Of a stretch of 64,000 bases of DNA, positions 28,243 to 41,137 are shown piece after piece. Source of the DNA: Ferrovaceae bacterium (lineage in GTDB: Bacteria > Pseudomonadota > Gammaproteobacteria > Burkholderiales > Ferrovaceae); NCBI GenBank assembly GCA_027449685.1, contig DAIDLC010000001.1:157353-221352 (forward strand). The letters run 5' to 3'. Made by a program: the position numbers and the translations under genes. Within the stretch, counting starts at the first letter, position 1, and every line of letters starts with the position of its first letter. The notes under the pieces are model-generated. The model was not told where the DNA came from and did no database searches. It saw only the letters and a list, made by a program, of their open reading frames with translations.

Positions 28243-29817
28243 ATGAACCAAGATTTACAGAAAACACTCTGGGCCGCCGCCGACAAACTGCGTTCCAACA
28301 TGGAAGCGGCGGAATACAAGCACGTCGTTCTTGGACTCATCTTCCTGAAATACATCTCCGATGCCTTCGGCGAGCGGAAGGAAGAGTTGAGGGCCGCATT
28401 TGCCGACCCCAAGCATGACCTCTACCTTGGCGACGACAGCCAGATTCCCTCGCTGCTGGAAGACCGCGCTTACTACACCATGGCGAATGTCTTCTGGGTG
28501 CCAGAGTCGGCCCGTTGGGAGACGATTCGCAATCAGGCCAAGCAGCCCGACATCGGCAAACGGATTGATGATGCTCTCATCGTCATCGAGCAGGACAACG
28601 CAAGATTAAAAGGTATCCTCGACAAGCGTTTCGCCCGCGCCCAGCTCGCAGACGGCAAGCTCGGCGAACTCATCGACCTCGTGTCGAGCATCGGCTTCGG
28701 CGGCAAGGACAAGGCTAAGGACGTTCTCGGTCAAGTCTATGAATACTTTCTCGGCCAGTTCGCCAGTGCCGAGGGCAAGAAGGGCGGCCAGTTCTACACG
28801 CCCGCCTCCGTGGTCAAGGTGTTGGTCGAGGTGCTGTCGCCACATCGGGGCAAGGTTTATGACCCGTGCTGCGGTTCGGGCGGCATGTTCGTCCAGTCCG
28901 AGAAGTTCATGGAGTCGCACGGCGGCAAGTTCGGCGACATCTCCATCTACGGGCAGGAAGCCAACCCGACGACGTGGCGGCTGGTGGCGATGAACCTTGC
29001 CATTCGCGGCATGGACTTCAATCTCGGCAAGGAACCCGCCGACACCTTCCACCGCGACCAGCATCCCGACCTGCGGGCTGATTACGTCCTCGCCAATCCG
29101 CCGTTCAATATCTCCGACTGGGGCGGCGACAAGCTGGCCTCCGACCCCCGTTGGGTGTATGGCACGCCGCCGACGGGCAATGCCAACTATGGCTGGTTGC
29201 AACACATCCTCTGGCACCTGAAACCGACGGGGACGGCGGGCGTGGTGCTCGCCAACGGCTCCATGTCCTCGAACACCAACAACGAGGGAGCCATCCGCAA
29301 GGCGATGGTCGAGGGCGACGCGGTGGAGGTCATGGTGGCCCTGCCGCCGCAACTGTTTTTCAACACGCCGATTCCCGCCTGCCTGTGGTTTCTCGCCAAG
29401 GACAAGACGAAGGGCGGACGCAACCGCAAGGGCGAGTTTCTGTTCATCGACGCACGCAAGCTGGGCCGCATGGAAACCCGCGTCAATCGCGTGTTCGACG
29501 ATGCCGACATCGACAAAATCGCCCGCACCGTGCATGCGTGGCGGCAGGATGGCGAAACGGATGCGACCTATGCCGACGAGGCGGGATTCTGCCGTGCGGT
29601 GAAACTCGACGAAATCAGGGAACACGGCTATGTGCTGACTTCGGGCCGCTATGTTGGCACCGAGGAGGTCGAGGACGATGACGAGGCGTTTTCCGAGAAG
29701 ATGGTGATGCTGACCGCCAAGCTCGCCGAGCAGATGAAGAAGGGCAACGAGCTTGACGGCCTCATCCGCGAGAAGCTCGCCAAGCTGGGCTTTCCATTGG
29801 AGTTGTACAATGACTGA
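28243..29817 (+). CDS. hsdM: Type I restriction-modification DNA methyltransferase subunit HsdM (N-6 adenine)
   Basis: [27 protein letters not shown]...[22 protein letters not shown]...[11 protein letters not shown]...LANPPFN (NPPF motif); 524 aa, apparently full length. Confidence 0.96.
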
Positions 29818-30220
29818 GAAACTCGACCTTACGCCGCTGGCGAATGCGGTGAATCGGCTTGCCGAGGGGCTGGCACGTTATGAGAAGGACATCACCGACA
29901 CGCAGATTCGCGATGGCCTGATTCAGCGGTTCGAGTTCAGCTACGAAATCAGCCACAAAATGTTGAAGCGTCATCTCGAAGCGGTGTCGCCGACTCCCGA
30001 ACAGTTCGACGGCATGGCGTTCGCCGACCTGATTCGTTCAGGCAACGAGCAGGGTTTGTTGCTGGGCGACTGGTCGAAGTGGAGGAACTATCGGGAGATG
30101 CGGAGCAAGACCAGCCACACCTACGACGAGGAAGTCGCCATTGAAGTTGTGCAGGGTATTCCCGCGTTTCTTGAAGAGGCACGCTATCTGCTGAAACAAC
30201 TCCAAGAACGGAATCAGTAG
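29810..30220 (+). CDS. HEPN-domain protein (HI0074-like nucleotidyltransferase substrate-binding / HepT-type putative RNase toxin)
   Basis: [58 protein letters not shown]...[14 protein letters not shown] with RX4HXY motif; start overlaps the hsdM stop by 8 nt. Confidence 0.88.
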
Positions 30221-30224
30221 CGGC

Positions 30225-31769
30225 ATGGCAGACCAGCCCCTTATCGACATCAGCCCCGAGAACTGGCGAATCGTTCGCGATATCCTGCAACGGCATGTGC
30301 CCGACCGTGAAGTATGGGCCTTCGGTTCGCGGGCGAAATGGACGGCCAAGGAGTTCTCCGACCTCGACATCGCAGTCATCGGTGACGAACCGTTGAGCAT
30401 CGGCGTGATGGCCGAACTGTCAGAATCGTTTCAGGAATCGGCGTTGCCGTTCAAGGTGGATGTCGTGGATTGGGCGGTGATTACGCCGTCGTTCAGGAAG
30501 ATTATCGAGGGCGGAAAAGTCCTATTGAGCAGTGGTGGCCAAGGAAATGAAAGCCTTCGAGGATGGAGAAAAACAACATGGGGCGAACTGGCCACCCTTG
30601 AATATGGAAAATCGCTGCGTGGATATGGCTCAGAAGGCAAATATCAGGTCTATCGAATAAATGGCCCGATAGGTTGGCACTCGCAACCTTTCTGTGAAGT
30701 TCCTAGCGTAGTAATAGGCCGAAAAGGAGCTTACAGGGGGGTGCATTATTCTCCCGCACCGTTTTTTGTAATCGACACGGCGTTCTTCTTGAAGCCGAAA
30801 GTAGATTTCGACATTAAGTGGGCCTACTACCAGCTTCTTACGCAAGACATCAATGGAATGGACAGCGGTTCGGCTATTCCATCTACAAGCAGGGACGAGT
30901 TTTATAAGCTTCAAGTCTTGGTTCCACCGCTCTCAGAACAACGTGAAATGTCCGCAGTTCTGACAGCATTTGACGACAAAATCTCGTTGCTACGCGAAGC
31001 CAACGTAACCCTCGAAGCCATCGCCCAAGCACTGTTCAAGTCGTGGTTCGTCGATTTCGACCCTGTGCGGGCGAAGGCGGAAGGCCGCGAGCCCGAGGGG
31101 GTGCCGCCAGAGATAGCCGAGCTTTTCCCGAGTGAGTTCGAGGATTCGGAGCTTGGGGAGATTCCTCAGGGATGGAAAACGAAACCAGTTTATGACTTGG
31201 CGGAATACATAAACGGGGCGGCATACAAGGCGTTTTCGCCAAATGGAGAAGAAAGAGGTCTGCCAATCATTAAGATTGCTGAGTTAAAAGCAGGAATCAC
31301 TTCCCAGACGGCATACTCTGATGTATCCATGCCAGAAAAATACCTTCTCGAAACTGGCGACATATTGCTCTCTTGGTCTGGCAATCCTGATACCTCAATC
31401 GGCACGTTTATTTGGCATCACGGACGAGCTTGGCTCAATCAGCACATATTCCGAGTAGTGATTCAGCAAGCGGCTGAGCGTCCGTTCGTTCTTCAAACGT
31501 TGAAACATCTGCGTCCTGTGTTTGCTGAGCTTGCACGTAACAAGCAAACAACTGGTCTTGGGCACTTTACTGTTGCAGACATGAAACGTTTGTTGGTGGT
31601 TCAACCGAACAGTCCAGTGCTTGTCGCATTTGGAGAAATGGTTACACCCATTCATGCCCGCATTTTTGAGAATGAGCAGCAAGCAATAACGCTTACGTCG
31701 CTTCGAGATAGTCTGCTACCGAAACTGATGGCGGGAAATATCACTGTTGGCGGGGACATTGTCGCATGA
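30225..31769 (+). CDS. hsdS: MNT nucleotidyltransferase domain fused to a type I R-M specificity subunit HsdS
   Basis: N-terminus WAFGSRAKWTAKEFSDLDIAVIG (GSX10DXD), MNT end PSFRKIIEGGKVLLSS continues without stop into GWRKTTWGELATLEYGKSLRGY...; conserved SFRDSLLPKLMAG-like end (LRDSLLPKLMAGNITV); 514 aa. Confidence 0.9.
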   Translation: MADQPLIDISPENWRIVRDILQRHVPDREVWAFGSRAKWTAKEFSDLDIAVIGDEPLSIGVMAELSESFQESALPFKVDVVDWAVITPSFRKIIEGGKVLLSSGGQGNESLRGWRKTTWGELATLEYGKSLRGYGSEGKYQVYRINGPIGWHSQPFCEVPSVVIGRKGAYRGVHYSPAPFFVIDTAFFLKPKVDFDIKWAYYQLLTQDINGMDSGSAIPSTSRDEFYKLQVLVPPLSEQREMSAVLTAFDDKISLLREANVTLEAIAQALFKSWFVDFDPVRAKAEGREPEGVPPEIAELFPSEFEDSELGEIPQGWKTKPVYDLAEYINGAAYKAFSPNGEERGLPIIKIAELKAGITSQTAYSDVSMPEKYLLETGDILLSWSGNPDTSIGTFIWHHGRAWLNQHIFRVVIQQAAERPFVLQTLKHLRPVFAELARNKQTTGLGHFTVADMKRLLVVQPNSPVLVAFGEMVTPIHARIFENEQQAITLTSLRDSLLPKLMAGNITVGGDIVA

Positions 31770-32166
31770 CTGTCGATAAGTGTTGCGGCCCTGATTATTC
31801 CGCCACGAGAATCCCGCAATAATCCGCGCTGAAATGGGGGAGGCATCCCGGGATGATTCCCCAGGTGGGGTAATGCGGGAAGGTGGAAGAAAGTGAATCA
31901 GGGTGATGCCCTGAAAGAGCCTTGTTATGAACACAAGGATTTCTCAGGGGGTGTGGGGTTTAGGGGGATGGCAGATCTGGGAAGAGGACGAGTTGTCTAG
32001 GTTTGGGAGTGGGATATGTGGGGTTGGTCTTCCTGGAGCGGGGTTTTCTGATTTGTCTGGATCGTGCTTTTTTTAAGTACCGGGCCAGATCGGAGAGGAA
32101 GTCGTCCCACCCTTGTGCCCACCATTAGAGCCACTCTAGGCTAGGCGGGCGATAATCTCCCAGCGC

Positions 32167-32282
32167 AAAAAAAAACCGCGAATCGCTTCGCGGCTAGTTG
32201 CGCTGCAGCGGGGGAGGGCCACCGCGCCAAGGAGGAGTTCACGACCCAACCACCCATCGGAGGATCTGCGGAGATTGAATCG
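32167..32282 (-). ncRNA. Candidate small RNA with own sigma70-like promoter and intrinsic terminator
   Basis: Minus strand: TTGTTA (32318-32313) - 18 nt - TATATT (32294-32289); terminator CCGCGAAgcgaTTCGCGG followed by nine T (32193-32167); no minus-strand ORF upstream. Confidence 0.55.
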
Positions 32283-32534
32283 GTTCTAAATATAGACCAT
32301 TAAGGTACTGATTAACAATCACGTTTATTTGTCATTATCATAAATAAAGAATTATGGATATGGTTTTCAACCCCCATGAGCCATCCATCCGGACAGGTGA
32401 GATCCGGTTTTTCTGATAGAATTGGCACACTTCATCGTGTTCCGGTCGCGTGATCTGAGTCTTTCTACGCATCTATATTTCTGCCTTGACCGGGTTTGGC
32501 GCAAAACGCTGGAAGGCCGATCAGGAGCATAATA

Positions 32535-34049
32535 GTGAGTTTTGATTCATTGGGGTTGTCCCCCGAGCTTCTCCGCGCAGTGACCGAACAGGGCTATACC
32601 GAACCGACCCCCATTCAGGCGCAGGCCATTCCCTTGATCCTGGCAGGTCGGGACGTTCAGGCCGCCGCCCAAACGGGGACGGGCAAGACGGCCGGTTTTA
32701 CCTTGCCGATTCTGCATCGCCTGCAGCCCTTGGCGAGCAGCAGCGTTTCTCCCGCCAAACATCCCATTCGCTGTCTGGTGCTGACCCCCACACGCGAGTT
32801 GGCCGCGCAAGTTCATGCCAGCGTGCAAACCTACGGAAAATATTTGCCCTTGCGTGCCGCCGTGATTTATGGGGGCGTCAACATGAACCCACAGATCAAG
32901 GAACTGATGGCCGGTGTGGAAATCGTGGTGGCAACGCCCGGTCGCTTGCTGGACCATGTTCAGCAACGCACCATCAATTTGTCTCAAGTGGAAATTCTGG
33001 TGCTGGATGAAGCCGACCGCATGCTGGACATGGGGTTCATTCCAGACATTCGGCGCATTTTGCTCCTGTTGCCCAAGCAACGGCAAAACCTGTTGTTTTC
33101 TGCCACCTTTTCGGACGATATCAAAAAACTCTCCGGGGGCCTGTTACAGGATCCGGTCACCATCGAAGTGGCGCGTCGCAATGCCACAGCAGACCTGGTA
33201 CGGCAAGTCATTTATCCGGTGCATAAGGAGCGCAAACGCGAATTGCTGGTTCACCTGATTCGCACCGAACCAATCCCCCAGGCCATTGTGTTCATGCGCA
33301 CCAAACATGGGGCCAATCGTCTGTGCCACCAGTTGGAGCGCGAGGGGGTTTCGGCGGTCGCCATTCATAGTGACAAAACCCAGGTGCATCGCACGCGTAG
33401 TCTGGAAGAGTTCAAGACCGGCAAGGTCAGTATCCTGGTGGCCACAGATATTGCCGCCCGAGGCCTGGACATCGACCAACTACCCTTTGTGGTGAACTTC
33501 GAATTACCCCATGTTCCCGAGGATTATGTGCATCGCATAGGCCGAACGGGGCGGGCCGGCAGCACCGGACATGCCTATTCCCTGGTTTGCCCCGAAGAAG
33601 CGAAAGAATTGGCAGCCATCGAGCGCCTGATCAAAACCACGCTCGAACAAGTGCCTGTTCCTGGGTTCGACCAGCCCAGCCCAACCCCGGAGGGCATCGA
33701 TGGCAAGGGTATGCGTACTCGCACGGGATTACGCCGCCCAGGGGGGGGGAGCACTGCACGCACGCCAGGGGCTACGGTCGGGCAATCCGCGTCAAGGGCG
33801 GCATCCAGCGGGGCCGGGCAACCAATGCCCGCAACGCACGCAATGGCCGAACCCGGGTTGCAGAGATTGCAAGAGGGAGAAGCGGTGCAGGAGACGCCGG
33901 CGCCCTCCAAGGTTAGACGGGAGCCCAGCGAGCATCACCGGGGGCACTTGTCGCGCGCGCATTTTGGCCGCCCTCCCTTGGCCAGCTTGGGCAAGAAGCC
34001 CAGGGAAATTCCAGCATTGCTGGGTGGTCTGATCAAAAAGAGCACCTGA
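32535..34049 (+). CDS. rhlE: DEAD-box RNA helicase RhlE family
   Basis: [71 protein letters not shown]; probable GTG start. Confidence 0.93.
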
Positions 34050-40003: not shown

Positions 40004-41137
40004 TTATAAAAGGCCACGGGCCGAAACCCAGTAGAGTTTGTTATAGGCCATCTTGAACCAATGCACGGCTTTGGTGGGTGCCTTGGGGTCGGGTGGGGTT
40101 TGGTAGTTGAACATGGCATAGGTGGCTCGGTCCTTGCCGGCTTCGATGAAACAGAACACCTTGCCGTCATATTCGCGTACGGGCACACCCATCTTGACGA
40201 TGGCGGCAATGTTCTCGCCCAGGGTATCGGCCTCGAAATGCGCTGTGGAGCCTGCTTTGCTGATGGGAATGTTGGTGGTGTCACCGCACACGTACACGTT
40301 GTCGTACCCCTCCAGCGTGAGTTTGGTGCGATGGGTGGGAAGCCAGCCATTTTGCCCCAGTTGGTTTTTTTCCAGAACCTCCATCCCCTTGTGGGCCGGA
40401 ATCGAGATGAGCAGATCGTAGGGAATGTCCACGCCTTCCTCGCTGCGCACCACCTGGTTGGCACCGTCTACCTCTTTGAGGTTGAAAAAGGTGTCGTAGG
40501 TGATTCCCAGGCGGTCCATCTCGGGAGCCGCCCATTTGGCCACGTTTTCCAGGCTATGCACCCGATTGATGGGATAGGTGTAATGCAGTTGCACCTTGTC
40601 GGAGAGCCCCCGGTCCTTGAAATAATCATGCAGCATGAAAGTGATTTCCAAAGGGGCCATGGGGCATTTGTGCGGAACTCCCACGGTAACGACTACCTTT
40701 CCGCCCGTAAAGGACTGCAGGCGCTTGAACATTTTCAGGGCACTGGCTTCGGTGTAGAAGGTTTCCGCATGTTCGCTCAAACCGGGAATGCCTTCCGGAT
40801 ACATGCGCGACCCGGTGGCAATGACCAGGATGTCGTAACCGAAGGTTTTGCCGCTTTGGGTGATGACGCGCTGCTGGTCCAACTCGAAGTGTTCCACAGG
40901 GTCCACATGAAACTGGATGCTGGGTTCCAGAAGGCTGGCCTGATCCCGGTACAGTTCGTCGGGGGTGGTGCGACCCACCGCCAGATAGAGCAGGCCAGGC
41001 TGATACATATGCTTGTCCGAGGCGGAGAGCATGGTGATCTGCGCTTTTCCGGACTTTAATTCCTGGGGCAAGCGCCGGGCCAGATTGTTGGCCAGAATGG
41101 TTCCTGCCATGCCCCCACCGATGATCAATATTTTCAT
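40004..41137 (-). CDS. Sulfide:quinone oxidoreductase-like FAD-dependent pyridine nucleotide-disulfide oxidoreductase
   Basis: MKILIIGGGMAGTILANNLARRLP; VATGSRMYPEGIPGL; VPHKCPMAPLEITFMLHDYF; YVCGDTTNIPISKAGSTAHFEADTL. Confidence 0.85.
   Translation of the reverse strand: MKILIIGGGMAGTILANNLARRLPQELKSGKAQITMLSASDKHMYQPGLLYLAVGRTTPDELYRDQASLLEPSIQFHVDPVEHFELDQQRVITQSGKTFGYDILVIATGSRMYPEGIPGLSEHAETFYTEASALKMFKRLQSFTGGKVVVTVGVPHKCPMAPLEITFMLHDYFKDRGLSDKVQLHYTYPINRVHSLENVAKWAAPEMDRLGITYDTFFNLKEVDGANQVVRSEEGVDIPYDLLISIPAHKGMEVLEKNQLGQNGWLPTHRTKLTLEGYDNVYVCGDTTNIPISKAGSTAHFEADTLGENIAAIVKMGVPVREYDGKVFCFIEAGKDRATYAMFNYQTPPDPKAPTKAVHWFKMAYNKLYWVSARGLL

Follow-up and report, generated by a model that had tools for sequence, protein, structure and literature searches.

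The window, by which we mean the whole 64,000-nucleotide stretch of DNA analysed here, includes between hsdS (type I restriction specificity) and the helicase gene rhlE a noncoding region that raises the question of whether its minus strand carries a gene of its own. Both nearest genes are located on the opposite, plus strand, as an earlier note on this DNA had pointed out, with hsdS stopping at 31769 and rhlE running from 32535, and the promoter and intrinsic terminator found between them on the minus strand serve no ORF. Judged by its sequence, the region is very probably a real gene for a small regulatory RNA (sRNA) of ~115 nt, conserved so far only in one genus. The reading that we prefer, with a probability of about 0.68, is that of a stand-alone sRNA gene whose product likely acts in trans with the assistance of Hfq, its linker blocking ribosome-binding sites.

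The putative promoter comprises a -35 hexamer TTGTTA (32318-32313) and a -10 hexamer TATATT (32294-32289), separated by an 18-nt spacer, and transcription is predicted to start, likely, at 32284-32280. Its previous description as near-consensus was overstated, as 9 of 12 positions agree with the consensus (4 of 6 in the -35 hexamer) and four sites with such a score are present in the region versus 2.7 +/- 1.6 in shuffles, which places the promoter match alone at chance level. About 106 nt after the promoter, a hairpin CCGCGAAGCGATTCGCGG is followed by nine Ts, all of these elements being present on the minus strand where the earlier note had placed them. The stem of this terminator hairpin, CCGCGAAgcgaTTCGCGG, comprises 32176-32193 and can extend to 32195/32174, with the T-run at 32175-32167. 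Under one strict rule, six strong terminators are found in the 64-kb window, this one included, versus one in 12 whole-window shuffles, which is far more than chance would give. None of the other five has a promoter-like site on its own strand 50-250 nt upstream; the pair is unique within the window, and the 12 shuffles yielded one weaker pair.

The A+T-rich block TTATGATAATGACAAATAAACGTGA, adjoining the -35 hexamer, could possibly be an UP element or a regulator site. A Fur box was considered and rejected, with the best consensus matches located at differing places in the two genomes that carry the sRNA and borderline relative to shuffles (0.052). The sequence CACGTTTATTTG(G/T)CAT, present within hsdS (31403-31418), recurs in this block (32320-32335) with 15 of 16 positions matching, which is probably due to chance.

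Table 1. Features of the sRNA locus in window coordinates; G000 is the window's genome and G002 a genome of the same genus.
Feature	Position	Strand	Basis or conservation
Sigma-70-type promoter (putative), TTGTTA-N18-TATATT	32289..32318	-	Sequence; hexamers 12/12 identical in G002
Conserved A+T-rich block TTATGATAATGACAAATAAACGTGA, directly upstream of -35	32319..32347	-	25/29 identical in G002
sRNA gene (candidate), about 114-118 nt, three stem-loops	32167..32283	-	Found only in G000 and G002
SL1, 5' stem-loop CCGATTCAATC ... GGTTGGGTCG, variable loop	32241..32282	-	Fold of both sequences
Open linker TGAACTCCTCC	32230..32240	-	Unpaired in both predicted structures
SL2, stem with apical loop CCCTCCC (RNA CCCUCCC)	32197..32229	-	Identical in both genomes; fold
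SL3, intrinsic terminator, 9-bp stem, GCGA loop (GTGA in G002), nine Ts	32167..32195	-	Fold, shuffles, conservation
rhlE, DEAD-box RNA helicase, divergent neighbour and syntenic anchor	32535..34049	+	Pfam DEAD, Helicase_C

The fold is a prediction made for both available sequences, those of G000 and G002, in each of which all 33 consensus pairs form. Together with the following TT of SL2, the linker reads TGAACTCCTCCTT (RNA form GUGAACUCCUCCUU), and in G002 it is 3 nt shorter, TGAACTCCTT (RNA GUGAACUCCUU). The linker resembles the anti-Shine-Dalgarno end of 16S rRNA and includes the CCUCCUU of that end. The long U-tail of SL3, as expected of an Hfq-dependent sRNA, is encoded by nine Ts in both genomes. 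The folding energy is modestly lower than that of shuffles on the minus strand (z -1.1) and worse on the plus strand (z +1.0). With two sequences only, no compensatory double change is visible.

Three genomes of the genus were available: the draft that contains the window (G000, 1.86 Mb in 100 contigs), G001, and G002, which is 65% complete. The sRNA unit recurs in G002 in the same place beside rhlE, with 82% identity over 261 nt (E 6e-65), and the adjoining RhlE protein is 90% identical. Conservation in relatives had been set beforehand as a test of the candidate, and both the promoter and the hairpin are kept there; this is the decisive support for the candidate and for the earlier note's reading of it as an sRNA gene. 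Pairwise similarity ceases 4 nt after the T-run. Within the RNA, the 3' half is identical at 67 of 68 positions, versus 176 of 247 four-fold sites of rhlE (71%; Fisher p 6e-8); SL1 is identical at 37 of 45 positions, and the 46-nt spacer toward rhlE is 44% identical (18/41). Within the promoter, the hexamers are invariant and their spacer is identical at 11 of 18 positions (p 0.024). Nine substitutions distinguish the two RNAs, eight of them unpaired and the ninth keeping its pair (hypergeometric p 0.0065); seven of the nine are located in the loops of SL1, and one G-U to A-U change in SL1 preserves pairing. Such constraint is consistent with a minus-strand gene whose product is a structured RNA.

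In the remaining genome of the genus, which is 70% complete, no closer counterpart of RhlE is present than a DEAD-box helicase with 46% identity, and the lack of a close rhlE makes its missing sRNA uninformative. In G002, the sRNA is flanked on its other side by genes that likely form an antitoxin-toxin pair and by an ion-channel-like gene (all identified by eye) in place of the restriction genes of G000, so the sRNA borders on a variable region. In the window, hsdS (30225-31769) encodes a type I specificity protein in which Methylase_S is fused to a nucleotidyltransferase domain (PF18765, PF01909) at the N-terminus, and the preceding ORF (29753-30220) encodes what appears by eye to be a HEPN/nucleotidyltransferase-partner-like protein; 29753-31769 may possibly represent an MNT-HEPN unit that became part of a restriction system. 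A G+C-rich near-palindrome, GGGGAGGCATCCCGGGATGATTCCCC (window 31837-31862), is present as well in the noncoding DNA beyond hsdS. Att-like repeats of the island were sought in the 3' end of the sRNA and none were found.

On the other side, the start of rhlE is likely GTG at 32535, preceded by AGGAG, and the best named match of its product, with 68% identity, comes from a Ferrovum sp. metagenome-assembled genome, a match by which the host is placed among Ferrovum-related betaproteobacteria. The rhlE leader (32451-32534) contains CCGGTC ... GACCGG, a motif that recurs in the leaders of loci L004 and L090 and is largely retained in G002; it is possibly a structured 5' element of rhlE.

Searches for relatives, proposed by the earlier note, delimited the spread of the unit. 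A covariance model built from the two sequences found it in only two of 32 family genomes, G000 and G002, and nowhere else in a sample of 399 genomes from the order; matches outside the genus were rejected as tRNA-plus-terminator, plain terminators or coding sequence. In 369 genomes of the class, an 18-nt core pattern had, outside the genome of the window, only one-mismatch matches, no more numerous than for a backwards control, and a search of viral_contigs for the sRNA found none. In most examined family members with this rhlE, the position divergent to it is taken by ssrA, the tmRNA gene (L086, L089-L096, L105-L108). The genome of the window has its full ssrA elsewhere (C6:118755-119121), with the sRNA occupying the divergent position by rhlE. 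Derivation from ssrA was considered and rejected, as the sRNA region has no similarity to ssrA loci, and no Rfam match to tmRNA (RF00023) is present at the sRNA locus.

Each of the three genus genomes has a gene for Hfq (PF17209 over cut-off), and in none was ProQ found. In the mechanism that we favor, the sRNA would have its own sigma-70 promoter for transcription on the minus strand and its own intrinsic terminator to end the transcript, yielding the ~115-nt RNA. Hfq would most likely bind it and assist it in trans, and the open linker GUGAACUCCUCCUU would pair with G-rich ribosome-binding sites, covering the Shine-Dalgarno sequence and blocking translation; the CCCUCCC loop of SL2 would perhaps also pair with such sites. 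Both CU-rich stretches to which the earlier note had ascribed complementarity to Shine-Dalgarno sequences, CTCCTCCTT and CCCTCCCCC, are indeed on the predicted RNA, and the Shine-Dalgarno reading is supported in part. The former, in the linker, is predicted to be single-stranded and favors start windows, but is cut to CTCCTT in G002. The latter is the invariant loop of SL2 and shows no preference for start windows. For 420 called starts sampled from about 460 kb of G000, the linker favors start over coding windows by 1.0 kcal/mol in pairing energy, and 10 of 10 shuffled linkers do less well; in the same sample, the SL2 loop pairs more strongly with coding windows, and so do its shuffles.

Target prediction with the CU-rich stretch, also proposed earlier, gave scores that did not rise above those of shuffled linkers. 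The top linker pairings in the ~460 kb of G000 involve a sulfide:quinone-reductase-like gene (start near 41137 on the minus strand of the window, below the NCBIfam cut-off) and a dsrC/tusE-family gene; dsrE2 and dsrO rank lower. The parts of G002 that were sampled yielded no close orthologues of these sulfur-gene hits, and DsrO over the cut-off is absent from its 65%-complete assembly. Among 103 start pairs common to G000 and G002, the best linker score belongs to ihfA (named by eye), a score that 51 of 200 shuffled linkers attain, and when scores are averaged over the conserved starts, 186 of the 200 equal or beat the linker. Since the target scores do not exceed shuffled controls, it is the anatomy that suggests the base-pairing mechanism, and the targets serve as leads only. 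The region of contig C3 of G000 at about 6-21 kb (L149, L150, L214) contains dsrO, dsrE2, the dsrC/tusE-family gene and a dsrL-like ORF, likely a reverse-dsr sulfur-oxidation cluster; DsrO is also above the cut-off in G008 and G009.

Among the alternatives, it is unlikely, but deserves consideration, that the sRNA works mainly via the C-rich loop of SL2 without Hfq, in the manner of sX13, which acts through C-rich loops independently of this protein (PMC3771888). SL2 with its CCCUCCC loop is identical in both genomes, whereas the linker is not, and the sX13 model, among the best sub-threshold Rfam matches (18.6 bits), aligns to the SL2 loop region. That score, however, is far under the gathering threshold of 50, only one of the three loops is C-rich here, Hfq is encoded in the genome, and the loop has the same bias toward coding windows as its shuffles. 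Rather improbable in turn is the proposal that a new sRNA family, specific to the genus, emerged in the position divergent from rhlE, which in most examined family members with this rhlE is occupied by ssrA, and that it controls energy metabolism, as the sulfur-oxidation genes among the strongest linker pairings would suggest. It is very improbable that the transcript serves to titrate a protein, or has only a local effect on the divergent rhlE by promoter competition, with no pairing to distant mRNAs. The sRNA does adjoin rhlE in both genomes, and a possible plus-strand promoter, TTAACA-N18-TATCAT, overlaps its -35 region, but this promoter is not preserved in G002 (CATCAT) and rhlE lies outside the transcript. 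The conserved promoter block of rhlE itself (~32394-32450, 93% identical in G002, 53/57) is set apart from the sRNA by the diverged spacer, and the constraint on the RNA body itself argues against purely local action.

We give very little credence to a short protein gene in place of a regulatory RNA, although the 3-nt length difference preserves the frame GTG-NSSLARWPSPAAAQLAAK, in which neither genome has a stop before the terminator. This frame enters the terminator hairpin, ending with AAG-TGA inside the loop in G002 and reading through the T-run in the window. It has no clear ribosome-binding site and shows zero synonymous changes in a stretch that is 98.5% identical, and an alternative ATG frame is interrupted by a stop codon in G002. 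It is just as hard to credit that the locus is not a functional gene at all, with the conserved block due to shared ancestry and the promoter and terminator accidental. The sRNA is carried by two genomes only, both of the same genus, but the constraint lies far above that of four-fold sites and flanks, with an edge at the terminator, and strong terminators hardly appear in shuffles. The stand-alone, trans-acting sRNA with a linker that would block ribosome-binding sites remains our preferred reading. As a conserved and well-delimited candidate, the locus offers a concrete first point for RNA work in the acid-mine Ferrovum-type group and an example of a lineage-specific sRNA gene bordering a variable region.

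The literature search on small RNAs of Ferrovum-type bacteria found nothing beyond passing mentions, and no Rfam family matches the locus at the gathering threshold. The best sub-threshold matches up to E 10 are anti-hemB (19.5 vs 49.5 bits), OmrA-B (18.7 vs 40) and sX13. Burkholderia RNA 7 "anti-hemB" (RF02837) is likewise betaproteobacterial, with UCCUCC in its 5' part, a middle hairpin and a strong terminator; however, its model has 81 positions, and 32 nt of the sRNA stand against three of them, and membership is rejected by the score. The sibling sRNAs NmsRA/NmsRB (NgncR_162/163) of Neisseria have CU-rich open segments that presumably resemble that of the sRNA described here, whereas the latter is present as a single copy. 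NmsRA/NmsRB are described as betaproteobacterial sRNAs of central metabolism (PMC5362039, PMC9973317). The sX13 RNA of Xanthomonas (RF02232) is also about 115 nt long, with three stem-loops and a C-rich loop able to meet G-rich motifs near starts. Unlike sX13 with its three C-rich loops, the sRNA here combines one such loop with a CU-rich open linker, and at 18.6 bits it is not a member of that family; the resemblance is one of a way of working. The sRNA is new as a sequence family and ordinary as a kind.
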